64,000 nt of DNA from positions 23,309,182 to 23,373,181 of the forward strand of contig OX439037.1 in assembly GCA_949317995.1 (NCBI GenBank), read 5' to 3'. This document shows, one piece after another, positions 2 through 59,880 of the stretch (positions are counted from its first letter, which is position 1; the number at the start of each line of letters is the position of its first letter). This DNA comes from Acholoe squamosa (taxonomy: Eukaryota > Annelida > Polychaeta > Phyllodocida > Polynoidae). Under the pieces are notes generated by a model that worked only from the letters and a program-made list of their open reading frames with translations, was not told the DNA's origin and did no database searches. Both the position numbers and the translations under genes were made by a program.

Positions 2-346
2 AACATCATTTTTCACACCAGGAGTCGATCCACATCTTTTCAAGAATTCAAGACAAGGATGACCCGGGGGCAGGTGGGCACCACAGACCTTGGCTAATTC
101 ATAGCCGCCTGCCTCGTTACTGATATTGGGTTTCCCCAGTGCGCCCGTGGCACCTGTTATATCAGCTTCCCTAACCTTCCGGGTGTCTACAACCACCTCG
201 GTGTTAGGCGATCTTGTTACTAAATGCGAACTATCGTCACGGATGGTGATATTATGGCAAGATTTGTCACTGGGATCCCCTTCTTTGCCCCTCGGGAGAT
301 CCCTTTCTAGTTTTCCTCTGTACTTATCCCAGAGACACTCTCCTGT
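2..346 (-). CDS. Start of pol, -1 frame relative to gag (partial)
   Basis: Shifting one base back relative to Gag gives a frame that is open from just after a TAA at 347-349 to the window edge (115 codons), overlapping the last 13 or so Gag codons. This is the usual gag-pol arrangement expressed by -1 frameshifting. No protease active site (DTG/DSG) is recognisable in the visible part, so the assignment rests on position and frame. Confidence 0.5.
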
Positions 347-1389
347 TTACGTGGAACAGGCTTTTCAGCCATACATTCGGGAGCAAAATGCCCCAGTTTC
401 TGACATCTGAAACATCTCCTTTGAGATTTATCAACTCTTGGTCTCCTTAGAGCTTCTGTTAATCCGGCTATTAATGTTTCCATCATGTTAGTCGGAGCAA
501 CTGTGGCTGCTACAGTTGAGTTCGCCGTAGAGGCTGCACTACCATGTTGAGTTGATCCGGAAGCTGTTTTACCAGCAACAGATCCTCCTCTCCCTCTCGA
601 ATGTACCTTCCTATACCGCTTTTGTCGGTAATACTTTCCGGCCACATGGACTGAACCAATATATTCTCCGTTTTCATCGGAGATATATTCATCTTCCTCA
701 TTAACTTCATTCGATTCAACCGGAGCTAATTGGGAAGTATCGTATACTGGAGCAGGTGTACCCCCGTATTGGAAAGGAGCTGCTCTTACTGGACTAGGTC
801 CAAGACCTACCAAACGTTTCTTCATGTCATGTCCATCAATTGCTATGAACAGATCACTGAATGAAGTGTCATCTTTCCAGGAGTCCCACACCACTTGCTT
901 ATGATCCGGATCTCGCAATCCACTATAGAATTGTATGAACAATTCTTGTAGATAACAATCATCATCATGAGCCCAATTTGGACGTGCTTTCGAAAGCAAG
1001 TCTTGTAGCTCCAAACCAAAGACTTTGTGTGATTCTTTAGGTTTTTGTGTTCTCTTCTTAAAGCTTACCCACGGATCTTCTCTAACGATTGATCCGAAAA
1101 GGTATGCGGCACATTCGACCAATTGATCATAGGTACCATATATTCCGTAAGCTGCTCTCCATTGGTTGAGAGCTACTTTTCCGCCTTTATTTAACCAACA
1201 AATCAAATATGGCAGAGCTTCTTCTTTTGTCCATCCACTACAATTGACTTCGTCGACAAAAGCTTGGTACCTGTCCTTCCATGGATCATTAGAATCATAT
1301 GGAGGGGGTATCCGTGCCTGTCTACGTGCCGGATTATTACATCCGCGTAGTCTATCTGCTTCTCGCATGCTCCAGTTCATGACTTCCAT
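307..1389 (-). CDS. Gag capsid-nucleocapsid part with zinc knuckle
   Basis: A 360-residue ORF. Residues about 25-190 resemble the Retrotrans_gag capsid region of Ty3/gypsy elements, rich in Trp, Leu and Tyr (for example the stretch around WKDRYQAFVDE and LPYLICWL). Residues 326-339 form one CCHC zinc knuckle (C-X2-C-X4-H-X4-C) that would bind genomic RNA. A low-complexity Ser/Thr/Ala linker lies between. The Met at 1389 may not be the true start, because the frame is continuous with the upstream coiled-coil ORF except for one TGA. The ORF ends in TAG at 307-309, with pol overlapping in the -1 frame. Confidence 0.85.
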   Translation of the reverse strand: MEVMNWSMREADRLRGCNNPARRQARIPPPYDSNDPWKDRYQAFVDEVNCSGWTKEEALPYLICWLNKGGKVALNQWRAAYGIYGTYDQLVECAAYLFGSIVREDPWVSFKKRTQKPKESHKVFGLELQDLLSKARPNWAHDDDCYLQELFIQFYSGLRDPDHKQVVWDSWKDDTSFSDLFIAIDGHDMKKRLVGLGPSPVRAAPFQYGGTPAPVYDTSQLAPVESNEVNEEDEYISDENGEYIGSVHVAGKYYRQKRYRKVHSRGRGGSVAGKTASGSTQHGSAASTANSTVAATVAPTNMMETLIAGLTEALRRPRVDKSQRRCFRCQKLGHFAPECMAEKPVPRKQESVSGISTEEN

Positions 1390-1404
1390 GCCGTCCGCTC
1401 CCTT

Positions 1405-3204
1405 TCAGTAGCAGTCAATGCCAAGGTTTTGTATACATTGGCTTCTATCAAAGATGGTTTGCATCCCTGCAGGCATAGAAGTTCTCCTGTTAGGTTTCCT
1501 GCCATCTCCTCCTGATCCTGATCCTCCGAATCCGGATCCTCCTGGGCCGCCTGGAGGGTTTCCTCCTGGTGGACCATTATTATTATAGCCTCCAGATGAA
1601 CCACCAGGGCATCCACTATTGTGACCGGTGTTTCCAGAAGAAGCGTATCTAGGGTAAGAATCATTTTGATTCCATCCCTGGTTATAGCTATTACCATTCT
1701 GATAATTGCCACTTCCCGATGGATTATAATTATTTCTATATCCATAGGACGATGTTCTCGGTTGATACGTACCGCCATTAATATTGTTTCGTGGCGGATT
1801 TGGTCTCGGAAAACGTCCATCAGTAGGACCATTACCAGAACCTAGGGTTGGATTCGGTAATCTTGGTACTGCTGGTGTACTGTGGCCGGGTTGGGGGAAA
1901 TATGAAGGTGGTGTCAACATATGCCTCATTGGTCCGGGTGCTCTTGGTTGTGCCACGGGTGTATTATTATTATTCCCTGTAGCGCCATCGTGAGTCGCTT
2001 TGATTTTGTGACTCAAATCTGGTATAGGTGGTGCCGGACCTATCGTATCCAGCATTGGAATTACTGGTTTAGATGCGGTTCCATTTACTGCAGCATTATC
2101 CGGTTTCTTATAGATTCCGGATACCACATTCTTGTCAGCCCCATCATCAACGAATGGGCTGTATCTAATTGGGGTTGCATCTTTAGATGTCTTTCCCAAC
2201 ATTGTAGATACCACAGCTGGGTCTATATTACCTATAGTTAACTGGGCTGCTTCTACATATTTATCTAGAGTTATTGCAGTGGCCTGCAATTCCTGAAGCT
2301 CATTTGTGAGTTTCTGTCTATCCTCCTCCAGTTGTTTGTTGTAAGCTATGATGCCTACCCGGATGGTTTCATTGTCTTCAGCTTGTTTACTGCACTGAAG
2401 TTTCAATTTATCCAACTCATCCTGATAATGGCGAATTTCGGATTCGAATTTTGTCTTATCAAGGTTTAGTTGGTCGTTCGTATCTATGTATGTTTGGATA
2501 CGAATGTGCCTATTATCATATTCTTTATTGAATGATTCTCTCATAGATTGAAGTTTTAGTTCTTCATTCTCGAGTTCTTTCATGTACTCGCTCCTTCTGG
2601 CTTCGAATTCCTTTCGCATGCCAGTTAGGTCCTCTTCCATCTGAAGTTTTTCATGGAATACTTCATCCTTAGCTTTGACCAAGGTATTTAAATTCTCGTT
2701 CAAAGTTACATAAGTTTCATTCAACAACAGGACATCCGGTCGTTTTAATTCTTCACCTTCCGGTACCGCATAGGTTAAGTCGCCATCTATAGCGCTATAA
2801 TCTAATATTGGTAATTCGGGCCTGGGTAACCTATAAGGTAGTTCTCCGAATGTTACCCTTTTTCGCATTGGTGCCGGATGTTCTGGGTTAGTACTACCAC
2901 CGACTTCGAACATCGAATCACATAATTCGTCAACAATTGATTGCTGGCCTATTAAGTTACTATGTCTCTGTATGGACTGTTCGCGTCGTACAGAGTCTGG
3001 CAGATTCTCCTCACTATCATTATAGTGGGGTCCGGGATCTCTCCAAGATGCTGATTCCGCATCTTGTGAGTCCGAATGGGCTTGGAGCATTAGCGATCCA
3101 TTTCCATTCTCTTGGGCAAGTGATTGCCCTGCTGGGTTAGCTTCCCTAAGGGTGTCTAACCCATGTACTAGCCGTTCGGACGTTATAACGTCCGGGCTAT
3201 ACAC
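1405..3204 (-). CDS. Gag N-terminal part: coiled coil plus Pro/Asn/Gly-rich tail
   Basis: A 599-residue open frame begins right after the primer-binding site. Residues about 1-150 are unremarkable. Residues about 155-320 are rich in Glu, Lys, Leu and Gln with heptad spacing, a long coiled coil likely to drive multimerisation. From about 390 to 575 the protein is low-complexity, first Pro-rich, then Asn/Gly/Ser/Tyr-rich, prion-like and probably disordered. It ends at a TGA that lies in the same frame as the capsid-nucleocapsid ORF six codons downstream. The two ORFs are therefore one frame interrupted by a single stop, either a nonsense mutation or a programmed readthrough site. No specific family was recognised for this N-terminal part; its role as Gag is inferred from position. 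Confidence 0.7.
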   Translation of the reverse strand: MYSPDVITSERLVHGLDTLREANPAGQSLAQENGNGSLMLQAHSDSQDAESASWRDPGPHYNDSEENLPDSVRREQSIQRHSNLIGQQSIVDELCDSMFEVGGSTNPEHPAPMRKRVTFGELPYRLPRPELPILDYSAIDGDLTYAVPEGEELKRPDVLLLNETYVTLNENLNTLVKAKDEVFHEKLQMEEDLTGMRKEFEARRSEYMKELENEELKLQSMRESFNKEYDNRHIRIQTYIDTNDQLNLDKTKFESEIRHYQDELDKLKLQCSKQAEDNETIRVGIIAYNKQLEEDRQKLTNELQELQATAITLDKYVEAAQLTIGNIDPAVVSTMLGKTSKDATPIRYSPFVDDGADKNVVSGIYKKPDNAAVNGTASKPVIPMLDTIGPAPPIPDLSHKIKATHDGATGNNNNTPVAQPRAPGPMRHMLTPPSYFPQPGHSTPAVPRLPNPTLGSGNGPTDGRFPRPNPPRNNINGGTYQPRTSSYGYRNNYNPSGSGNYQNGNSYNQGWNQNDSYPRYASSGNTGHNSGCPGGSSGGYNNNGPPGGNPPGGPGGSGFGGSGSGGDGRKPNRRTSMPAGMQTIFDRSQCIQNLGIDCY

Positions 3205-3216
3205 CAGAATTAACTG

Positions 3217-3228
3217 GTCACGGCACCA
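3217..3228 (-). other. Primer-binding site, tRNA-His type
   Basis: Minus-strand TGGTGCCGTGAC starts one base after the LTR end. It is the complement of the 3' end of animal tRNA-His (GTCACGG, then discriminator C... ending CACCA), as recalled from general tRNA knowledge. Position and TGG start are typical of LTR retrotransposons. Confidence 0.65.
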
Positions 3229-3326
3229 GTGTAAGGGTTTGTGGCCTTACGGACCTGGGGGGTTCGGGTCTTACGGTTCGGAAAGAAAGAGTAAGACAGT
3301 ATTCCAAGTGTATGCCAACGGTTAGG

Positions 3327-3332
3327 TTTATT
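3327..3332 (-). terminator. AATAAA polyadenylation signal of the LTR
   Basis: Minus-strand AATAAA inside the LTR, downstream of the TATA box and about 100 bp before the LTR end. It would define the R region. Confidence 0.55.
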
Positions 3333-3450
3333 ACTTAATGCACACTCACGGCTGCCGGATGATATCAAAGAGGCAGCTAATTTTAAAAGACAGTGGTTTA
3401 CATAGTGTGGAGGCCAGAAGGGCCTCTGACGTAGCGGCTGAGCCCTGGGC

Positions 3451-3458
3451 TTTATATA
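3451..3458 (-). promoter_or_regulatory. TATA box of the LTR promoter
   Basis: Minus-strand TATATAAA inside the LTR, about 120 bp upstream of the AATAAA signal, placed as expected for the U3 promoter that starts the genomic RNA. Confidence 0.6.
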
Positions 3459-3606
3459 CGGACCCAGGTGTTCGTCGTCAGATGTCCCCACAGACCCGGA
3501 TCGGTGCTGCCACCTATCCGGAACCTGAGGAACGTCCGACGACTCGACTCACCCGCCACGTCAGACGGTACCCAACTCCTATGGTTTAGTAAAGTGTACC
3601 TCTACA

Positions 3607-34648: not shown

Positions 34649-34944
34649 TGTTTTTATTTCTGTCTATAAGAATCATGACAACTCTGACATTATGATAGTC
34701 ACCCAGATGGCGTTAAGAAGGTGCATTATGAATGTATGTCTACATACACCACCAGGGAGGGATAGAATGTGCTGTTGTGATAAAGATTGTACATGGCATG
34801 TAAAATTGTGAGGGAGAAGCTTAATCCTTGGCATCTTATTTATGGTATTCAACAGTCTGTATATATTGTCATTTCAGAGCGCCCTCACGCCACTGGTGGT
34901 CGTGACCAGAACTAGGTGGGAGGCGGAACCGAAACTAGTACAAT

Positions 34945-35061
34945 ATGAAGGTTGATGTGCGAGGCCACCCTGTGGCACAGGGTCTGTACGACCCTCAGTA
35001 TGAGAAGGATGCGTGCGGGGTCGGCTTTGTGGTCAGCATTGATGGCATTGCCTCCAACAAG
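34945..35061 (+). CDS. GOGAT: GOGAT coding exon 1 (residues 1-39)
   Basis: Start codon to AAG|GTAAGA donor, phase 0. Encodes the propeptide and the Cys24-Gly-Val-Gly-Phe active-site start. The exon probably begins at 34878 after TTGTCATTTCAG, giving 67 nt of 5' UTR. Confidence 0.92.
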
Positions 35062-41000: not shown

Positions 41001-44000
41001 CATCGACTGGATACCCCATGTTTACTGCATAAAATATAGCAGTTTATGCCAATCTAGTAGCTTATGCCACTCTGGTAGCAGCTGCTGCCTGCTGATAACA
41101 CAGCATTAATTCAGCAGGGAAGGATGGTTGGGTAATACCATAAAGGAGGGATTATGTGGTAAGACCACACCGTGTTAGACAGGACATTGCAAGTGCACTG
41201 TAGAGGAAAGCTTTCCCTTTGATATGGTGGCACCCTTGGGAACACAGAGAGGGAAAACAGTGGTATCTACTTATTTTTATCACAGGTTAGCAGTATGTTA
41301 TATATGAGGACTCTTTTAGTAGCATCAAGAAATGTGAGAATTTCGGATGACGGAGGGAGTTTTTGATAATTATATTATACCTTTAAATCTCAATGGGATG
41401 ATGGAAATCAATTTAATCTGATTATACGTTTGGCCAAGATCCATCAGGTTCCAACATTGTTTGATAGAATGATCATCAACTTTTGGTTTTCCACTGGGAA
41501 AATTATTTCGTCGATAGTAAAATCTCTGATCCGAGTAGAAAATATCTCTCTAATGGCACTTGCATTGTGCCAAAGAAACCATGCTAATTGAATTCCTTTA
41601 TGTCTGCATTCTAGATGATGTGTGTAGGCCTGCATTAAATGGAAAGGTGCAAAGTTGAATAGAATTTTGGGATAGCTATAAGTGCATAATGCAAACTAGA
41701 ACTTTAGATATGCATATAACGCAACCCTTTACGCTGAGGTACAATAGGTTGAGTTTCCAGTCAGAATATACCATGCAGTTTCCCATCACAACACTGCAGT
41801 CACTAAAATGCGATCTGTGTGCCTAGTAGATGCAGCAACCCTCTCGATCAGATCTATTTTATGCTGTTCCTTTCGTTGACAGCTAAAGTGCTTTTGTACA
41901 AATCATAATAACTTAGCAATAGAATATCAGGTGAAAAATAGATGACATCTACTGAATATATTTATTTGTAAGGGTGACAGGCGACCGCCATTCAAACGCA
42001 TTTGGTTTTGCTCAATATGTCTTATCCAATATCCTTTGAAAAGAAGCATTGTTGACTTTAGCTTTGTGACATGGTGTATGGTGTTTCAATGGTGTAATCC
42101 ATAGCTAAGCCAGTCTACGTGATATCAGACAGTCTGGTATCTAGGGGATGATACTGTAGGGGTCGGCGAAAACGTTTAGGGAAACCAGGATTCGAACCGG
42201 GACCTCTCAGCCTTCAGACGATTGCTCTACCACTGAGCTACTTCCCAGTACAACGTTTTCTGCCTTCCACCCACGCCTGGATCGGTGTGATACCGACAGG
42301 GGACATGTGACTACCCGGTGACCCGCCTCTTCAGGTCGGCCACCCTGGGCATGGGGACTCACATAGTCACGTTCCCCTACACAGCCCCCAACCAGCTTCG
42401 ACCACCGAATTAACCAGCACTGAGTCACACACAGGGAAAGACCTGGCCTGTGGGCACCCCAGTGCTAGCAGGTCGAAGCGCTTGCTGTATCACACCAACC
42501 CAGGAACCGAGTTCCGTAGCCCCCCCTCACGCGGGTCAGGACTACTCGGTTTCCCTACCATTGTAGGGGGCAGCGAAAATGTTTAGGGAAACCGGGATTC
42601 AAACCCGGGACCTCTCAGCCTTCAGACGATTGCTCTACCACTGAGCTACTTCCCCGTACACTGTTTTCTGCCTTCCACCCACGCCTGGATAGGTGTGATA
42701 CCGACAGGAGACATGTGACTACCTGGTGACCTGCCTCTTCAGGTCGGCCACCCTGGGCACGGGGACTCACATAGTCACGTTCCCCTACAATACATAGAAA
42801 TTGTATCACAAAACAGTAAGCTGTTTCAGAGGTTTCCTTTATTCATAGTACCATGTCTGTGATAAGAAGGCGAGCATGAATTCATAGGTGTGGCCTTACT
42901 TAAGCCTTTCTGCATTGGAGGTTAACCATAGTGTACATGAAACCATGGCACAATTGTCTTTCCACAATGGCTTATCATATTCACCATTAAAAACTTTACT
43001 GAAATCACTGATGTGGTGTCAAAGAAATTGATCTCTTAAAGAAGCACAAAAACATGACTCCCTAGCATTTTACAACTGGTCCCTTTGAAAATTCAGAATC
43101 ATCTTTGTCAATCACAGGACTATTATTTTGTCAATTACAGCCTTTACTGCGTCACATTCAAAGCTCCTCTTGAAGAAACTGACATTGAATAGTTCATTAT
43201 TAAAGGAGATTTTGTCCTTTTTCGGCCTCTCAGCAAAGGTACTGGTAACAGTGCAATCTGAGTAAAATTCCTGAATGGAGAGGAGATTGGTTGTCATTCC
43301 CCCCTCCTCAAATGAAGCCATTATCCATCATTTCATCATAGTGTCCTAACCGTATACCGTAATAATGTTATTAAACGTTACATAAGCCATGATAGGGGAC
43401 CTAGCGGTTCCAAGTAAGGCAACGCGTCAATGCTAGAGATAAACTCATTTTTATAAATGTTTTTATTGACCGAATGAAATAATAAAAAAAACACAGACTC
43501 TTAGGGTGTATATCAGGCTCCTATATATATGACCTCCAGGCATGTTTCATGACTAGAGGGTGTGACTGGTACTTTTCCAACTATAACTGCTATTAGCATT
43601 ACATCCTATATTCAGAGATAAGGTTTTGGCACGTTTTGTATTCACACATACCTACCCTTTTCCACAGCAAACAGAATGCCATATCCATGGAGAAAGGTTC
43701 AATAGCCAGTCATAATTATGTATAATATGTACAGGTATGACACAGTTCCTTGAAATTATAGAAGAAAAATTGATTTTTGTGGAATTTGGGTGCTGAGAGT
43801 CTTTTTAAGTAACATAATAACACACCTGCTATGTGAGACAGAGGTCTTATGTGTTGCAAATACTTACATGTGGTGAGAAACAGTGCCGGGTTGTGTGATA
43901 TATTATTATGAATACAGAACTTCTTGAGTTAGGTCCTGGTACACATCGATGCCTGTGTGGATATCCACTGGACACCAATCACCCTAAAAGAGGCATATTT

Positions 44001-47000: not shown

Positions 47001-50000
47001 ATATCAATNNNNNNNNNNNNNNNNNNNNNNNNNNNNNNNNNNNNNNNNNNNNNNNNNNNNNNNNNNNNNNNNNNNNNNNNNNNNNNNNNNNNNNNNNNNN
47101 NNNNNNNNNNNNNNNNNNNNNNNNNNNNNNNNNNNNNNNNNNNNNNNNNNNNNNNNNNNNNNNNNNNNNNNNNNNNNNNNNNNNNNNNNNNNNNNNNNNN
47201 NNNNNNNNGAAACATAAGAAGACTGGTAGAGTTTAGAGTGCAACCCCTTTGGGAAACCAACCTTTCAGAAAAATGTCACTCATGAATCCCACTTGTGGAT
47301 CCCCCACCGGGACGAGTGTGAAAACACCGATCATTGAAATCACAGAAAGCACTGGCAACCTGAGCCTTGACCAACAAAACAACAGACCAAAAAGACAACG
47401 TACCGAGGAAGAAAATGGCGAACCGGAAGTGGTCACAACAACAAGCAACAGTAACCGTGGCAACGTGTCACCTAGGACAACGTTGCGCGCAGTTCGTAGC
47501 AACACCCGTCTGAAACAACTCAAAAGGAAACCCCCACAATTTAAAACCACTGTCACCCTTACCATCCGCACAGCCCCATGGTATAAAGCCTTAAAGAAAG
47601 TGGGTCTAGCACTTACAAAATCTGAACATCACCGTGACACATTAAAAACACATCTGGAAAACCACACAGTCCCCCAGGGGACTCCAAGCATCGATCACGG
47701 CACAGATCCCCGACGTCTCGGCGTCATTTATCTCTGACTGGGAGGAAGCCCACTCAGCGTTCAGTACTAAACTTGCCACCATCCTTCGGGATTATTGGCA
47801 AACTAGAGCAGAGAAATTAACCCAAGAATATCACGATCATTGCAACCTCATGACAACAAAATGCAACCCAACGGAGGCAACAGCAATAATGAAAGGAGTG
47901 GAAGGAATCATGGAGGAAATGAAAACAAAACTGAGCCAAAAAACGGCCAAAAAAACAGGCGCTTCCGAAAACCAAGAGAGCCAACTCTCCACCTCGACAC
48001 AATAGTCAATTTATCTGACCACATACTAAGTGATGATGAAAATAAATTATTGAATAAAGGCCTAAATTTTATCCCCACACCTATGGACCCACACCCCGCA
48101 AAAACTTTACAAGACTGTCTCCTGTTCACCAGAAAAATCCGTTTAAACGAATTACACAAAGAAGACACCTCCTATACCCAATTAGAACCTACAACCTTCA
48201 TTGAACCAGACAAGCAACCCACAGGCTGGACCCCTCCCCCAGGCAGAAATGCCTATGTCGATTGTTACACACATTCTGTAACCACTAAGGTTGAAAACCT
48301 AAAAAAGTCAAAGAATACAAGGGATAATCTCACACCAGGAGAGAGAATGGCTTTACGTGACTTGGGCAATAACTTGGATATAGTCATAAAAAGCGCAGAC
48401 AAAGGTGGAGCCACGGTTATCAAAAATGCAGAGGATTTTGAGACAGAATGCCAACGACAACTAAGTGATGATAAGTATTATAAGAAACTACCCTCAGACA
48501 CCACTGGAAAGATTAATAAGAAACTATCCAAAGAGATAGGCCATCTCTGCTCACAAGGTTTCCTTCCTAAAAAATGCAAGACAAATTTGATCAACCAATA
48601 CCCCAGAACACCCCAGTTCTACACTTTACCTAAAATACACAAGGCAAATAACCCAGGCAGACCTATAGTATCAGCCTGTGATGGCCCCACTGAACACATC
48701 AGCTCGTATGTAGATAAAATTATAAAACCATTGGCAATGGAACTACCCAGCTACATCAGGGACACGTCAGATTTTATTAATCATTTGGTAAACCTCGACC
48801 CACTTACAGAAAGGGAACATTTGGTCACCATAGATGTGTGTTCACTTTACACATCTATACCTCATGCCCAGGGCATAGCAGCCTGCAACCATTTCCTGAA
48901 CAAAAGACCAAACCCCTACCCACACACCTTCGTCGTTGCCAAACTCATTTACAACATACTGACCAACAATGTCTTTGAGTTCAACAATGCCTTCTACATA
49001 CAAACACACGGGACCGCCATGGGGACGAAAATGGCGCCAAACTTTGCAAATTTGTTCATGGGACATTTAGAATCTGATCTTCTGTCAAAGAGTTTCATAC
49101 AACCTAGAGTTTGGCTACGATTTATAGATGATATCTTCACAATTCTACCAGGGCCAGAAGAGGTTACAGCTTTCACGGAATACATCAATGAATATCATCC
49201 GACCATACAATTCACAGTTGAGCACAGTGACCAAGAAATCAACTTCCTTGACACAACGGTATATCGTGGACCCAACAATGAAATCTGCACCAGACTTTAC
49301 ACCAAGCCCACAGATGCCCACATGTACCTACAATGGAACTCATACCACCCCCTGGCGTTGAAAAAATCAATCCCCTTCTCACAACTAACTAGGTTGAAAA
49401 CCATTGACACCTTACCAGAGGACTACGAAAAACACAGCAAATTATTACTACAGCGGTTCAAAAACCATGGATATCCCAACAAGATACTCCAGGTAGCAAA
49501 GCCCAAAGCAAGCAGACTAAGACGTGAAAATCTCTTGAAACCCAAACCAATAAAAGAACGGGACAGCACACTCTACATTACGGAATATAACCCTAAACAC
49601 ACCATTATACTCAAGATTTTGAAGGAAAGTCAGGCCGTCCTTGCAGCAGACCCAATTCAAACGGAAAAATACCCCCCACGTGTGTCTGTCACATAGAGAA
49701 AATCAAAGAACTTGAAGAACAGCCTAGTACACACCTCATATCCACCAAAGAAAAAAACCCCAGGCTCTTCCTCCTGTGGTAGACACAAACACTGTGTGAA
49801 AATAAAAAATACGACAGAAGTCACAAGCACGTCTACAGGCAGGACGTTCCGAATAGTAGGTCACAACACGTGCGCTACGAACAACGTAGTGTACGTCATC
49901 ACATGTTTAAATTGTAGCAAACAATATGTGGGAGAAACCTCCCACTCGGCCATAAAACGTCTGGGACAACATTTGAATGACATTAGACGACTGACAGACC

Positions 50001-53000
50001 CTAGATACAACTCCAGTAGCAGTGAAAATGATGACGATGAACAGGAAATTCATTGGGCAAAAAAAGAAACTGAGGTTTCCAAACATTTCCGTGATGACAC
50101 TGGTTGTGGTGGCGACATGGTTTCCATGACAATAGTAGATGGTACCGGAAAAACAAAAAAATTGGAGACTGCGCCTTGAAGAAGCATGGATTAGATTACT
50201 CAACACCTGGCAACCACATGGACTTAACATAAAAGCATAATGATTTCCAAATGTAAATATTGTGACAAATTTTTCAGCAACAATGGTCTACGGCGACATC
50301 TAACCATGGCACATGGGGCAAGTAGCAGAGTAATCTGCGCACACTGCCATAAGGACTTTGACCGTACTACCAACGCACGACGTCACAGTAAGAGACATCA
50401 TCCTGATGAAACTTTTATTTGTTTTGTTGAATTCGTTAAGCCAGGAGAGTCCCATGTAGTTCCTGTGGCAAACACTAGTCCCCAACTCAATACCAACTAC
50501 CGTGACCAGCACTCTACTAATTATGGTAACACTGTGAAGGATAATTCCTCACCAATTTTAAAGCCCTCAGACCCGCTTCATGCTGAAATAGAAGAGCTAC
50601 TAGACAGCATCTTGTCATCCCAGAACCATCCCACTGACAGTGAGCCGATAAACTCTAAGCCTACACAGTGTGAAATTAATGAAGGACCTAAAATGCCTGA
50701 AGAAAATGTCACTCCTTCCAGAGGTTCCACCAGTTACGAGACTATTGACTATCAGTCACTATATGATATCTTAGGTTGGAAATATGATGGTGAAAGTACT
50801 CCAACAATCAGTGAATCGCCTACAACAAAACTCAAAAATGTCCCCAGTGAAGTAAAAGAAGAAATGAGTTTACCAACACCTCTCCCTAGTTCACCAGAAA
50901 TTTGTAACTGGGTTCCAGTTCCTTGGGCTCAAGATGAATACCCACCCGTGAAATTTGAACATTTCAATCATCATATTGATGTCTATGATTTTCTCCCTAC
51001 TCAACCATATAACTGCAGACACTGAACTCTCTCAGCGAACAGAGAATTCTGATACTATTTGATCCTAGTATATTTATTCTGCTCCATGTGATCCATATTC
51101 AATGTGTATATCCAGTGAAAACTATGACACTTAGTGATGATGAGAAATATCTTTATTGCTAGACCCACAATTTTCATCTTTTTTTATATCAATGGACATT
51201 GTAGATATCAGAGGGAACCAGTGAGAAATTCTTATATATATATATATATATATATATATTCAGATCAACATTGTCTCACCTACCAATTTGAAACAACTCC
51301 AGCACCACTCTCTGAAATGACTCATTATTGATATACCTGACACTGATTGAATAAATTGTATTCCCTGATGAAGGCCTGAAAAGGCCAAAACTAGTAGGAA
51401 TCTTTACATTTTAATCTTGTTGTCCAAGACTCAATTATTCAGCTATTATCGATTCTGGATTTTAGGGAATATTTTCTACTTTTTAGAATTTTTTGTTGTA
51501 TACCCTACGTATCCTTCACTGGATCTCCAGAAACATCTCAAGAAGACTGGTAGAGTTTAGAGTGCAACCCCTTTGGGAAACCAACCTTTCAGAAAAATGT
51601 CACTCATGAATCCCACTTGTGGATCCCCCACCGGGACGAGTGTGAAAACACCGATCATTGAAATCACAGAAAGCACTGGCAACCTGAGCCTTGACCAACA
51701 AAACAACAGACCAAAAAGACAACGTACCGAGGAAGAAAATGGCGAACCGGAAGTGGTCACAACAACAAGCAACAGTAACCGTGGCAACGTGTCACCTAGG
51801 ACAACGTTGCGCGCAGTTCGTAGCAACACCCGTCTGAAACAACTCAAAAGGAAACCCCCACAATTTAAAACCACTGTCACCCTTACCATCCGCACAGCCC
51901 CATGGTATAAAGCCTTAAAGAAAGTGGGTCTAGCACTTACAAAATCTGAACATCACCGTGACACATTAAAAACACATCTGGAAAACCACACAGTCCCCAG
52001 GGGACTCCAAGCATCGATCACGGCACAGATCCCCGACGTCTCGGCGTCATTTATCTCTGACTGGGAGGAAGCCCACTCAGCGTTCAGTACTAAACTTGCC
52101 ACCATCCTTCGGGATTATTGGCAAACTAGAGCAGAGAAATTAACCCAAGAATATCACGATCATTGCAACCTCATGACAACAAAATGCAACCCAACGGAGG
52201 CAACAGCAATAATGAAAGGAGTGGAAGGAATCATGGAGGAAATGAAAACAAAACTGAGCCAAAAAACGGCCAAAAAAACAGGCGCTTCCGAAAACCAAGA
52301 GAGCCAACTCTCCACCTCGACACAATAGTCAATTTATCTGACCACATACTAAGTGATGATGAAAATAAATTATTGAATAAAGGCCTAAATTTTATCCCCA
52401 CACCTATGGACCCACACCCCGCAAAAACTTTACAAGACTGTCTCCTGTTCACCAGAAAAATCCGTTTAAACGAATTACACAAAGAAGACACCTCCTATAC
52501 CCAATTAGAACCTACAACCTTCATTGAACCAGACAAGCAACCCACAGGCTGGACCCCTCCCCCAGGCAGAAATGCCTATGTCGATTGTTACACACATTCT
52601 GTAACCACTAAGGTTGAAAACCTAAAAAAGTCAAAGAATACAAGGGATAATCTCACACCAGGAGAGAGAATGGCTTTACGTGACTTGGGCAATAACTTGG
52701 ATATAGTCATAAAAAGCGCAGACAAAGGTGGAGCCACGGTTATCAAAAATGCAGAGGATTTTGAGACAGAATGCCAACGACAACTAAGTGATGATAAGTA
52801 TTATAAGAAACTACCCTCAGACACCACTGGAAAGATTAATAAGAAACTATCCAAAGAGATAGGCCATCTCTGCTCACAAGGTTTCCTTCCTAAAAAATGC
52901 AAGACAAATTTGATCAACCAATACCCCAGAACACCCCAGTTCTACACTTTACCTAAAATACACAAGGCAAATAACCCAGGCAGACCTATAGTATCAGCCT

Positions 53001-55553
53001 GTGATGGCCCCACTGAACACATCAGCTCGTATGTAGATAAAATTATAAAACCATTGGCAATGGAACTACCCAGCTACATCAGGGACACGTCAGATTTTAT
53101 TAATCATTTGGTAAACCTCGACCCACTTACAGAAAGGGAACATTTGGTCACCATAGATGTGTGTTCACTTTACACATCTATACCTCATGCCCAGGGCATA
53201 GCAGCCTGCAACCATTTCCTGAACAAAAGACCAAACCCCTACCCACACACCTTCGTCGTTGCCAAACTCATTTACAACATACTGACCAACAATGTCTTTG
53301 AGTTCAACAATGCCTTCTACATACAAACACACGGGACCGCCATGGGGACGAAAATGGCGCCAAACTTTGCAAATTTGTTCATGGGACATTTAGAATCTGA
53401 TCTTCTGTCAAAGAGTTTCATACAACCTAGAGTTTGGCTACGATTTATAGATGATATCTTCACAATTCTACCAGGGCCAGAAGAGGTTACAGCTTTCACG
53501 GAATACATCAATGAATATCATCCGACCATACAATTCACAGTTGAGCACAGTGACCAAGAAATCAACTTCCTTGACACAACGGTATATCGTGGACCCAACA
53601 ATGAAATCTGCACCAGACTTTACACCAAGCCCACAGATGCCCACATGTACCTACAATGGAACTCATACCACCCCCTGGCGTTGAAAAAATCAATCCCCTT
53701 CTCACAACTAACTAGGTTGAAAACCATTGACACCTTACCAGAGGACTACGAAAAACACAGCAAATTATTACTACAGCGGTTCAAAAACCATGGATATCCC
53801 AACAAGATACTCCAGGTAGCAAAGCCCAAAGCAAGCAGACTAAGACGTGAAAATCTCTTGAAACCCAAACCAATAAAAGAACGGGACAGCACACTCTACA
53901 TTACGGAATATAACCCTAAACACACCATTATACTCAAGATTTTGAAGGAAAGTCAGGCCGTCCTTGCAGCAGACCCAATTCAAACGGAAAAATACCCCCC
54001 ACGTGTGTCTGTCACATAGAGAAAATCAAAGAACTTGAAGAACAGCCTAGTACACACCTCATATCCACCAAAGAAAAAAACCCCAGGCTCTTCCTCCTGT
54101 GGTAGACACAAACACTGTGTGAAAATAAAAAATACGACAGAAGTCACAAGCACGTCTACAGGCAGGACGTTCCGAATAGTAGGTCACAACACGTGCGCTA
54201 CGAACAACGTAGTGTACGTCATCACATGTTTAAATTGTAGCAAACAATATGTGGGAGAAACCTCCCACTCGGCCATAAAACGTCTGGGACAACATTTGAA
54301 TGACATTAGACGACTGACAGACCCTAGATACAACTCCAGTAGCAGTGAAAATGATGACGATGAACAGGAAATTCATTGGGCAAAAAAAGAAACTGAGGTT
54401 TCCAAACATTTCCGTGATGACACTGGTTGTGGTGGCGACATGGTTTCCATGACAATAGTAGATGGTACCGGAAAAACAAAAAAATTGGAGACTGCGCCTT
54501 GAAGAAGCATGGATTAGATTACTCAACACCTGGCAACCACATGGACTTAACATAAAAGCATAATGATTTCCAAATGTAAATATTGTGACAAATTTTTCAG
54601 CAACAATGGTCTACGGCGACATCTAACCATGGCACATGGGGCAAGTAGCAGAGTAATCTGCGCACACTGCCATAAGGACTTTGACCGTACTACCAACGCA
54701 CGACGTCACAGTAAGAGACATCATCCTGATGAAACTTTTATTTGTTTTGTTGAATTCGTTAAGCCAGGAGAGTCCCATGTAGTTCCTGTGGCAAACACTA
54801 GTCCCCAACTCAATACCAACTACCGTGACCAGCACTCTACTAATTATGGTAACACTGTGAAGGATAATTCCTCACCAATTTTAAAGCCCTCAGACCCGCT
54901 TCATGCTGAAATAGAAGAGCTACTAGACAGCATCTTGTCATCCCAGAACCATCCCACTGACAGTGAGCCGATAAACTCTAAGCCTACACAGTGTGAAATT
55001 AATGAAGGACCTAAAATGCCTGAAGAAAATGTCACTCCTTCCAGAGGTTCCACCAGTTACGAGACTATTGACTATCAGTCACTATATGATATCTTAGGTT
55101 GGAAATATGATGGTGAAAGTACTCCAACAATCAGTGAATCGCCTACAACAAAACTCAAAAATGTCCCCAGTGAAGTAAAAGAAGAAATGAGTTTACCAAC
55201 ACCTCTCCCTAGTTCACCAGAAATTTGTAACTGGGTTCCAGTTCCTTGGGCTCAAGATGAATACCCACCCGTGAAATTTGAACATTTCAATCATCATATT
55301 GATGTCTATGATTTTCTCCCTACTCAACCATATAACTGCAGACACTGAACTCTCTCAGCGAACAGAGAATTCTGATACTATTTGATCCTAGTATATTTAT
55401 TCTGCTCCATGTGATCCATATTCAATGTGTATATCCAGTGAAAACTATGACACTTAGTGATGATGAGAAATATCTTTATTGCTAGACCCACAATTTTCAT
55501 CTTTTTTTATATCAATGGACATTGTAGATATCAGAGGGAACCAGTGAGAAATT

Positions 55554-55589
<36 letters not shown>

Positions 55590-58500
55590 GATCAACATTG
55601 TCTCACCTACCAATTTGAAACAACTCCAGCACCACTCTCTGAAATGACTCATTATTGATATACCTGACACTGATTGAATAAATTGTATTCCCTGATGAAG
55701 GCCTGAAAAGGCCAAAACTAGTAGGAATCTTTACATTTTAATCTTGTTGTCCAAGACTCAATTATTCAGCTATTATCGATTCTGGATTTTAGGGAATATT
55801 TTCTACTTTTTAGAATTTTTTGTTGTATACCCTACGTATCCTTCACTGGATCTCCAGAAACATCTCAAGAAGACTGGTAGAGTTTAGAGTGCAACCCCTT
55901 TGGGAAACCAACCTTTCAGAAAAATGTCACTCATGAATCCCACTTGTGGATCCCCCACCGGGACGAGTGTGAAAACACCGATCATTGAAATCACAGAAAG
56001 CACTGGCAACCTGAGCCTTGACCAACAAAACAACAGACCAAAAAGACAACGTACCGAGGAAGAAAATGGCGAACCGGAAGTGGTCACAACAACAAGCAAC
56101 AGTAACCGTGGCAACGTGTCACCTAGGACAACGTTGCGCGCAGTTCGTAGCAACACCCGTCTGAAACAACTCAAAAGGAAACCCCCACAATTTAAAACCA
56201 CTGTCACCCTTACCATCCGCACAGCCCCATGGTATAAAGCCTTAAAGAAAGTGGGTCTAGCACTTACAAAATCTGAACATCACCGTGACACATTAAAAAC
56301 ACATCTGGAAAACCACACAGTCCCCAGGGGACTCCAAGCATCGATCACGGCACAGATCCCCGACGTCTCGGCGTCATTTATCTCTGACTGGGAGGAAGCC
56401 CACTCAGCGTTCAGTACTAAACTTGCCACCATCCTTCGGGATTATTGGCAAACTAGAGCAGAGAAATTAACCCAAGAATATCACGATCATTGCAACCTCA
56501 TGACAACAAAATGCAACCCAACGGAGGCAACAGCAATAATGAAAGGAGTGGAAGGAATCATGGAGGAAATGAAAACAAAACTGAGCCAAAAAACGGCCAA
56601 AAAAACAGGCGCTTCCGAAAACCAAGAGAGCCAACTCTCCACCTCGACACAATAGTCAATTTATCTGACCACATACTAAGTGATGATGAAAATAAATTAT
56701 TGAATAAAGGCCTAAATTTTATCCCCACACCTATGGACCCACACCCCGCAAAAACTTTACAAGACTGTCTCCTGTTCACCAGAAAAATCCGTTTAAACGA
56801 ATTACACAAAGAAGACACCTCCTATACCCAATTAGAACCTACAACCTTCATTGAACCAGACAAGCAACCCACAGGCTGGACCCCTCCCCCAGGCAGAAAT
56901 GCCTATGTCGATTGTTACACACATTCTGTAACCACTAAGGTTGAAAACCTAAAAAAGTCAAAGAATACAAGGGATAATCTCACACCAGGAGAGAGAATGG
57001 CTTTACGTGACTTGGGCAATAACTTGGATATAGTCATAAAAAGCGCAGACAAAGGTGGAGCCACGGTTATCAAAAATGCAGAGGATTTTGAGACAGAATG
57101 CCAACGACAACTAAGTGATGATAAGTATTATAAGAAACTACCCTCAGACACCACTGGAAAGATTAATAAGAAACTATCCAAAGAGATAGGCCATCTCTGC
57201 TCACAAGGTTTCCTTCCTAAAAAATGCAAGACAAATTTGATCAACCAATACCCCAGAACACCCCAGTTCTACACTTTACCTAAAATACACAAGGCAAATA
57301 ACCCAGGCAGACCTATAGTATCAGCCTGTGATGGCCCCACTGAACACATCAGCTCGTATGTAGATAAAATTATAAAACCATTGGCAATGGAACTACCCAG
57401 CTACATCAGGGACACGTCAGATTTTATTAATCATTTGGTAAACCTCGACCCACTTACAGAAAGGGAACATTTGGTCACCATAGATGTGTGTTCACTTTAC
57501 ACATCTATACCTCATGCCCAGGGCATAGCAGCCTGCAACCATTTCCTGAACAAAAGACCAAACCCCTACCCACACACCTTCGTCGTTGCCAAACTCATTT
57601 ACAACATACTGACCAACAATGTCTTTGAGTTCAACAATGCCTTCTACATACAAACACACGGGACCGCCATGGGGACGAAAATGGCGCCAAACTTTGCAAA
57701 TTTGTTCATGGGACATTTAGAATCTGATCTTCTGTCAAAGAGTTTCATACAACCTAGAGTTTGGCTACGATTTATAGATGATATCTTCACAATTCTACCA
57801 GGGCCAGAAGAGGTTACAGCTTTCACGGAATACATCAATGAATATCATCCGACCATACAATTCACAGTTGAGCACAGTGACCAAGAAATCAACTTCCTTG
57901 ACACAACGGTATATCGTGGACCCAACAATGAAATCTGCACCAGACTTTACACCAAGCCCACAGATGCCCACATGTACCTACAATGGAACTCATACCACCC
58001 CCTGGCGTTGAAAAAATCAATCCCCTTCTCACAACTAACTAGGTTGAAAACCATTGACACCTTACCAGAGGACTACGAAAAACACAGCAAATTATTACTA
58101 CAGCGGTTCAAAAACCATGGATATCCCAACAAGATACTCCAGGTAGCAAAGCCCAAAGCAAGCAGACTAAGACGTGAAAATCTCTTGAAACCCAAACCAA
58201 TAAAAGAACGGGACAGCACACTCTACATTACGGAATATAACCCTAAACACACCATTATACTCAAGATTTTGAAGGAAAGTCAGGCCGTCCTTGCAGCAGA
58301 CCCAATTCAAACGGAAAAATACCCCCCACGTGTGTCTGTCACATACAGAAAATCAAAGAACTTGAAGAACAGCCTAGTACACACCTCATATCCACCAAAG
58401 AAAAAAACCCCAGGCTCTTCCTCCTGTGGTAGACACAAACACTGTGTGAAAATAAAAAATACGACAGAAGTCACAAGCACGTCTACAGGCAGGACGTTCC

Positions 58501-59880
58501 GAATAGTAGGTCACAACACGTGCGCTACGAACAACGTAGTGTACGTCATCACATGTTTAAATTGTAGCAAACAATATGTGGGAGAAACCTCCCACTCGGC
58601 CATAAAACGTCTGGGACAACATTTGAATGACATTAGACGACTGACAGACCCTAGATACAACTCCAGTAGCAGTGAAAATGATGACGATGAACAGGAAATT
58701 CATTGGGCAAAAAAAGAAACTGAGGTTTCCAAACATTTCCGTGATGACACTGGTTGTGGTGGCGACATGGTTTCCATGACAATAGTAGATGGTACCGGAA
58801 AAACAAAAAAATTGGAGACTGCGCCTTGAAGAAGCATGGATTAGATTACTCAACACCTGGCAACCACATGGACTTAACATAAAAGCATAATGATTTCCAA
58901 ATGTAAATATTGTGACAAATTTTTCAGCAACAATGGTCTACGGCGACATCTAACCATGGCACATGGGGCAAGTAGCAGAGTAATCTGCGCACACTGCCAT
59001 AAGGACTTTGACCGTACTACCAACGCACGACGTCACAGTAAGAGACATCATCCTGATGAAACTTTTATTTGTTTTGTTGAATTCGTTAAGCCAGGAGAGT
59101 CCCATGTAGTTCCTGTGGCAAACACTAGTCCCCAACTCAATACCAACTACCGTGACCAGCACTCTACTAATTATGGTAACACTGTGAAGGATAATTCCTC
59201 ACCAATTTTAAAGCCCTCAGACCCGCTTCATGCTGAAATAGAAGAGCTACTAGACAGCATCTTGTCATCCCAGAACCATCCCACTGACAGTGAGCCGATA
59301 AACTCTAAGCCTACACAGTGTGAAATTAATGAAGGACCTAAAATGCCTGAAGAAAATGTCACTCCTTCCAGAGGTTCCACCAGTTACGAGACTATTGACT
59401 ATCAGTCACTATATGATATCTTAGGTTGGAAATATGATGGTGAAAGTACTCCAACAATCAGTGAATCGCCTACAACAAAACTCAAAAATGTCCCCAGTGA
59501 AGTAAAAGAAGAAATGAGTTTACCAACACCTCTCCCTAGTTCACCAGAAATTTGTAACTGGGTTCCAGTTCCTTGGGCTCAAGATGAATACCCACCCGTG
59601 AAATTTGAACATTTCAATCATCATATTGATGTCTATGATTTTCTCCCTACTCAACCATATAACTGCAGACACTGAACTCTCTCAGCGAACAGAGAATTCT
59701 GATACTATTTGATCCTAGTATATTTATTCTGCTCCATGTGATCCATATTCAATGTGTATATCCAGTGAAAACTATGACACTTAGTGATGATGAGAAATAT
59801 CTTTATTGCTAGACCCACAATTTTCATCTTTTTTTATATCAATGGACATTGTAGATATCAGAGGGAACCAGTGAGAAATT

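Follow-up and report, generated by a model that had tools for sequence, protein, structure and literature searches.

The stretch of Acholoe squamosa DNA analyzed here (64,000 nucleotides with a GC content of 40.6%, hereafter the window) contains a miniature long terminal repeat (LTR) element that, judging from its sequence, probably encodes the primer for its own reverse transcription. Each LTR carries a tRNA-like cassette, and the 3′ end of this cassette followed by CCA is the complement of the element's own primer-binding site (PBS). Among the genomic relatives of the element, which bear the integration signature of LTR retrotransposons and include recently active copies, cassette end and PBS are coupled over three cassette types.

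Structure of the element and its tRNA-like cassettes

The two-LTR element covers 635 bp of the minus strand (42155-42789; Table 1). Terminal repeats of 227 and 228 bp with TG..CA ends, ATAC on both flanks, and a 180-bp interior were all located where the original prediction had placed them. The LTRs are 93.9% identical, with 14 differences between the 5′ and the 3′ copy, and no open reading frame (ORF) of at least 110 amino acids (stop to stop) overlaps the element. Two LTRs, a total length below 1000 bp, and the lack of an ORF of this size agree with the definition of TRIMs. The PBS begins one base (A) interior to the 5′ LTR. The sole candidate for a polypurine tract before the 3′ LTR is a weak one, GGTTGGGGGCTG.

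Table 1 Features of the miniature element (window coordinates)
Feature	Position	Strand	Basis
Target-site duplication ATAC, left copy	42151..42154	.	Sequence
Target-site duplication ATAC, right copy	42790..42793	.	Sequence
5′ LTR, 228 bp, ends TGTAGGGG...CCCCTACA	42562..42789	-	Most genomic copies with identical ends
3′ LTR, 227 bp	42155..42381	-	Sequence comparison of LTRs
Interior, non-coding, 180 bp	42382..42561	-	ORF list and sequence
tRNA-like cassette in 5′ LTR; GAA anticodon loop, A and B boxes	42584..42655	-	ARAGORN, Rfam
tRNA-like cassette in 3′ LTR	42177..42247	-	ARAGORN, Rfam
TTTT 3′ of 5′ LTR cassette, candidate Pol III terminator	42576..42579	-	Sequence
TTTT 3′ of 3′ LTR cassette	42169..42172	-	Sequence
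PBS TGGTAGGGAAACCG, complement of cassette 3′ end CGGTTTCCCTA plus untemplated CCA	42547..42560	-	
Polypurine-tract-like stretch GGTTGGGGGCTG, weak, adjoins 3′ LTR	42382..42393	-	Sequence only
U3 arm (3′ LTR) of long-range helix with interior	42276..42293	-	Fold, complementarity
U3 arm (5′ LTR) of long-range helix	42684..42701	-	Pair counts made on 5′ LTR arm
Interior arm of U3/interior helix	42487..42504	-	Fold, complementarity, pair counts

A tRNA-like cassette followed by TTTT had been claimed for each LTR. Both were recognized by ARAGORN as tRNA-Phe(GAA) (42655-42584 and 42247-42177, minus strand), with the TTTT behind each, and their Rfam tRNA scores of 53.9 bits (5′ LTR) and 44.9 bits (3′ LTR) lie above the gathering value of 29. 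The B box of the 5′ LTR cassette, GGTTTGAATCC, deviates from the usual GGTTC. CCA is absent from the DNA, the 5′ LTR having CCCTAAACATTTT. The minimum-energy folds of the two cassettes differed from a full cloverleaf, and their folding was not clearly better than that of shuffled sequences (z = -1.33 and 0.14). The proposed identity of the PBS with the complement of the cassette 3′ end plus CCA was borne out by exact runs of 14 nt for the 5′ LTR copy and 13 nt for the 3′ LTR copy. Chance as the origin of this match was ruled out by 200,000 shuffles of the interior, among which the longest run was 12, in a single shuffle, and a run of 13 never occurred.

Other mobile elements lie in the same window. 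Three head-to-tail elements of approximately 4.3 kb each (47233-59675), with reverse transcriptase and GIY-YIG domains according to the Pfam analysis of one copy and the ORFs, have an architecture that we take to be Penelope-like. Protein searches yielded no close relative; the named matches of the window's reverse transcriptase among those listed came from bivalves, at 38-45% identity. A Gypsy-like element with a zinc-knuckle gag-like ORF (307-3606, minus strand) is truncated by the window edge. Its LTR ends in TTACA (LTR start determined by eye) and is followed by one spacer base and TGGTGCCGTGACC, presumably a PBS for tRNA-His; LTR ends similar to those of the miniature element and the identical one-base spacer are common to both. 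A short open stretch at 34939-35060 (plus strand) presumably resembles a glutamate synthase exon, a reading unconfirmed by Pfam.

Genomic copies and cassette families

The genome searched comprised 1.48 Gb in 63 contigs, with 1.479 of 1.481 Gb in C1-C18. The element search listed at least 44 matches, and 40 of 2,173 first-look candidates were scored. Altogether, 60 distinct copies were gathered (18 of them from loci chosen for an exact PBS), and 48 were full length. The 4-bp duplication around the LTR pair was perfect in 34 of these 48 relatives of the window element, had one mismatch in 6, and more mismatches in 8; some of the remaining copies are arranged in tandem arrays. Tandem copies with a common LTR occur at L019 and at L113. 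Divergence between the LTRs of a copy had a median of 1.75% across the 48 copies, and three copies showed no substitutions (0.0%), indicating recent movement of the window family. All 30 of the exact-PBS places sampled directly adjoined an LTR end of this family.

Three cassette types were distinguished by their ends (..CCCTA, ..TTTCTCCA, and ..TGTCTCCA), each accompanied by a matching PBS. The second type was represented by eight different copies, namely L037-L039, L041-L044, and one adjoining L010 (L040 duplicates L039). Its cassette, called Ser-CGA by ARAGORN, ends in GGTTTCTCCA in one LTR or both; its PBS, TGGTGGAGAAACC, was exact in five of the eight copies and one base off in three. Outside the cassette, the second-type element is close to the window element: between-group medians, computed with L035 placed in the second type and L036 omitted, were 0.88 for U3 and 0.84 for the interior, but 0.73 for the tRNA. 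The third type belongs to a related family, here called family C, which was reached via the top Rfam tRNA matches and has LTRs of approximately 249 bp and an interior of approximately 209 bp. Its cassette end is GGTGTCTCCA, and the PBS TGGTGGAGACACC was found in 22 of 24 tabulated copies, with one base off in the other two.

Family C duplications were perfect at 18 of 25 LTR pairs and at 0 of 50 single LTRs inside full copies; the family also includes 12 solo LTRs, eight with duplications. Solo LTRs (in family C) and target duplications of 4-5 bp, both anticipated for a genuine LTR element, were therefore found, the duplications being 4 bp long and placed around the pair. None of the contrary outcomes named beforehand was seen; duplications around single units, for instance, were absent from the 50 units of family C. 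These counts also bear on the reading of the structure as a dimer or tandem of a tRNA-derived SINE instead of an LTR element. Such a reading would draw on the tRNA-like modules and on the tandem copies mentioned above, but the duplications flank the LTR pair and not the unit, solo LTRs carry duplications of their own, and the ends are TG..CA. We rejected the SINE dimer as extremely improbable; a duplication-flanked unit without an LTR pair, as characterizes tRNA SINEs, is not what the element presents.

For the analysis of conservation, an alignment of 72 full-length copies (48 kin of the window element and 24 of family C) covered the 5′ LTR and part of the interior. An A box was present in 70 of the 72 sequences, a B box in 67, and TTTT in 70. 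Cloverleaf pairing was nearly complete in the acceptor (99.8%), D (99.7%), and T (97.5%) stems but reached only 67.8% in the anticodon stem, although only part of the shuffle measures of this test rose above chance. This combination of paired acceptor, D, and T stems with a loose anticodon stem is as expected if the cassette is retained for its promoter and for maturation rather than for decoding. The isotype called by ARAGORN differed among genomic copies, and no tRNA was called in copy L036. In the flank of another copy, ARAGORN predicted a tRNA-Cys (L026:2690-2764, minus strand), which may be a host gene or belong to another element.

The cassettes also dominated the genome-wide tRNA predictions. 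The best 63 of 97,417 Rfam tRNA candidates were scored, and 40 loci together with 14 further stretches covered, by coordinates, 62 of these 63 places; in the places so inspected (L076-L129), the genome's top-scoring tRNA matches were LTR cassettes. The tRNA sequences from the top places, 27 distinct ones in a first set and 14 in a second, all looked cassette-like, and none resembled a host gene; one cassette (in L108) had no LTR end behind it. With transposon LTRs among the best predictions, a naive tRNA annotation of this genome would be strongly inflated.

Coupling of the primer-binding site and the cassette end

Across the 60 copies, the PBS matched at least one of the copy's own cassette ends plus CCA at 13 of 13 positions in 46 cases and at 12 of 13 in 14. 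A genome-wide pattern with GGTTT and AAACC fixed and five free bases each in cassette end and PBS gave 1,503 matches, versus 10 with the reversed pattern. Among 100 listed matches of the 1,503 (all on C1), 90 were perfect, eight were one base off, one was two bases off, and one was a chance match outside any element. The perfect places divided into 79 with CTCCA/TGGAG and 11 with CCCTA/TAGGG, and no crossed combination of cassette type and PBS occurred among the 100 listed. A PBS consistent with the cassette end, expected from the original prediction, was thus observed in both data sets, and a PBS varying independently of the tRNA-like end was seen neither in the copies and the genome pattern nor in the 72-copy alignment.

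In this alignment, ten of the eleven cassette-end/PBS pairs were formed in 98.2% of cases and the eleventh in 97.2%. Changes on both sides affected three of these pairs, in 24, 31, and 31 sequences. The tested structure, which included a U3 helix described below, was 97.1% paired, and this value fell to 29-46% when the partners were slid. Cells changed on both sides numbered 163, compared with 59.8 in shuffles (none of 500 as high), and the cells paired and the covariation score likewise exceeded all 500 shuffles. Covariation gained no support from the count of pairs with two-sided changes, which was 8 compared with 7.3 for shuffled data (162 of the 500 shuffles reached it), and the number of pair types in the alignment was not above shuffles. 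The coupling counts go back to a small number of inherited switches, two or more. Where the PBS varies, at three positions, the acceptor pair survives at two of them only via G-U, its 5′ base staying the same, whereas the PBS changed along in all 72 sequences; the 3′ strand of the cassette thus keeps closer step with the PBS than with the 5′ strand of its own stem.

Could a host tRNA account for the same PBS? The pattern for host tRNA-Phe genes gave 80 matches, of which four were overlapping entries for a single gene and another was not a tRNA; most lie in a tandem array with a unit of approximately 1.67 kb (C4:58.51-58.63 Mb). Their ends, TCTGGGCA or TCAGGGCA, agree with the window PBS at 8 of 13 and 7 of 13 positions, and host tRNA-Phe as a primer was rejected for these pattern-found genes. 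Compared with 25 human tRNA ends, the window PBS fitted Phe best, at 10 of 13.

The main competitor is host tRNA-Ala. It would prime the element, and the cassette would derive from the same tRNA-Ala, so that its likeness to the PBS would reflect common origin; we consider this unlikely, while granting it a real chance. Host tRNA-Ala genes gave 207 pattern matches, and the following figures refer to 100 listed ones, some of them overlapping. A tandem array of these genes extends on C12 from 51.45 Mb to at least 51.48 Mb. AGC genes mostly end in GGGTTCTCCA and TGC and CGC genes in GGCATCTCCA; a rare AGC variant with the end GGTTTCTCCA occurred three times among the 100. To the second-type PBS, the common AGC end fits at 12 of 13 positions and the rare variant exactly (13 of 13), and a host Ala primer is accordingly conceivable for that type. 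G3-U70, an identity element of tRNA-Ala, is moreover found in the second-type and family C cassettes. Host Ala nevertheless fits worse than the own cassette elsewhere: the PBS of family C agrees with the common end at 11 and with the variant at 12 positions, and the window PBS at 10 and 11, the common end failing at the fifth and seventh base from the PBS start, while the own cassette attains 13 of 13 in both. Base-for-base mirroring of cassette changes in the PBS across the 72 copies also speaks against a host primer. The complementarity of a TRIM PBS to a tRNA 3′ end is hence provided here by the own cassette, with host Phe and common Ala the worse partners.

A second competitor holds that the complementarity is kept for a hairpin formed in cis in the genomic RNA, with a function in packaging, regulation, or self-priming without CCA. 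In a read-through RNA, cassette end and PBS are predicted to be able to pair in cis, and the modeled fold of the 120-nt 5′ RNA contains an 11-bp stem, but this fold is not clearly stabler than shuffles (z = -0.47). The sense full-length RNA was stabler than shuffles (z = -4.84 and -4.53) and the antisense RNA less so (z = -2.76). These scores are weak evidence because one of 15 random controls was lower still (z = -6.23). The PBS starts with TGG, complementing a CCA that is not encoded in the DNA and would be superfluous for a cis stem. Overall, we regard the cis hairpin as quite unlikely.

Apart from the cassette end, U3 is complementary to the interior over 18 bases, and the 3′ U3 arm is predicted to pair with the interior in the full-length RNA. 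Over the 72 copies, 96.5% of the cells of this helix were paired and five pairs had changes on both sides, while one pair failed in 32 of the 72. Possibly, and this is a guess, the helix juxtaposes the ends for strand transfer or serves packaging.

Proposed self-priming and comparison with known elements

LTR retroelements are generally held to need host tRNAs or self-priming by their own transcript. For the present element, we infer a different route. Pol III would transcribe the LTR cassette, terminating mostly at the downstream TTTT, and RNase P, RNase Z, and the CCA-adding enzyme would convert the transcript into a tRNA-like RNA with the end ..GGUUUCCCUA-CCA, which would appear as small-RNA reads ending in GGTTTCCCTACCA. 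Full-length RNA may arise by read-through past the minimal terminator or from Pol II, and its PBS would complement the CCA-tailed cassette end. A Gypsy-type helper reverse transcriptase might then extend the primer, and the copy would integrate with a 4-bp duplication; no autonomous partner of the miniature element was found. As regards the original suggestion that the cassette transcript primes its own element, the exact match and the general coupling favor it, while each step of the route, from transcription by Pol III through the CCA tail to the priming itself, is postulated.

In every replication cycle, the primer serves anew as the template for the PBS strand. Changes at the cassette 3′ end would consequently be written into the PBS, which would yield the observed coupling. 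Copying is also expected to stop at the modified A58, giving an 18-nt match; the match found here is 14 nt, and this shortfall counts against self-priming, as do the incomplete cloverleaf folds of the window cassettes and the predicted ability of cassette end and PBS to pair in cis. With a slight preference over other histories, we envisage a superfamily that carries its own primer tRNA gene. A single Pol III promoter would provide both primer and read-through template, PBS and primer would co-evolve, and the element would be freed from host tRNAs. It may have originated with a host tRNA-Ala-like primer, which one cassette type still fits and from which two others drifted away. If true, LTR retroelements would have a further means of obtaining a primer, the way in which a PBS keeps up with its primer could be tested in a natural system, and there would be a reason for the persistence of tRNA-like cassettes in LTRs.

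A retroviral vector has reportedly been rescued by an engineered tRNA-like primer matching its PBS. The PBS of that vector was likewise matched to a tRNA-like primer, artificially there and naturally here. Exact element patterns had no match in viral contigs and none in plasmids; three prokaryote matches were taken as chance, with no tRNA in the stretches examined. The PBS string occurred in the texts of 31 open-licence papers; judging by title, the 30 listed included no retrotransposon paper. No described LTR element primed by its own tRNA was found in the open-licence literature, and Helenus alone came close among the matches listed.

Several known systems, described here as far as the cited text portions go, have individual features in common with the present families. 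In Tf1-like self-primed LTR elements, the element likewise supplies the primer (PMC6934838); self-priming there takes the place of a tRNA-derived PBS, whereas a CCA-tailed tRNA-like RNA is implied here. The biv-TRIM of bivalves is also an animal TRIM, in which no canonical PBS was identifiable (PMC6934838). Cassandra, a plant TRIM, likewise carries a Pol III small-RNA gene in its LTR, but a 5S rRNA rather than a tRNA gene, and the text that describes it mentions no primer role (PMC10886601).

Closest is Helenus (TRIMp3), a group of TRIMs with tRNA-like LTRs reported from fungi, plants, and six animal phyla, with bivalves as the only molluscan hosts (Kojima 2024; PMC10886601). Animal copies of Helenus have 4-bp duplications, bivalve PBSs correspond to Lys, His, Ile, Pro, Glu, or Ser tRNAs, and mobilization in animals is attributed to Gypsy elements (PMC10886601). 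The present families and Helenus are both short and non-coding, with tRNA-like LTRs bearing A and B boxes and a PBS adjoining the 5′ LTR; 4-bp duplications (in animals), solo LTRs, and inflated tRNA counts (in Helenus, in fungi) are further common traits. The claim that no animal element of this kind had been described accordingly does not hold for miniature elements with tRNA-like LTRs, as Helenus shows, but stands for the PBS self-match, which is new relative to Kojima (2024). Section 3.6 of that paper considers the LTR tRNA as a primer but dismisses this for want of any complementarity with the PBS (PMC10886601). By anatomy, the present families are Helenus, apart from the PBS self-match: cassette-PBS complementarity, for which Helenus gave no example according to that section, is exact and general here.
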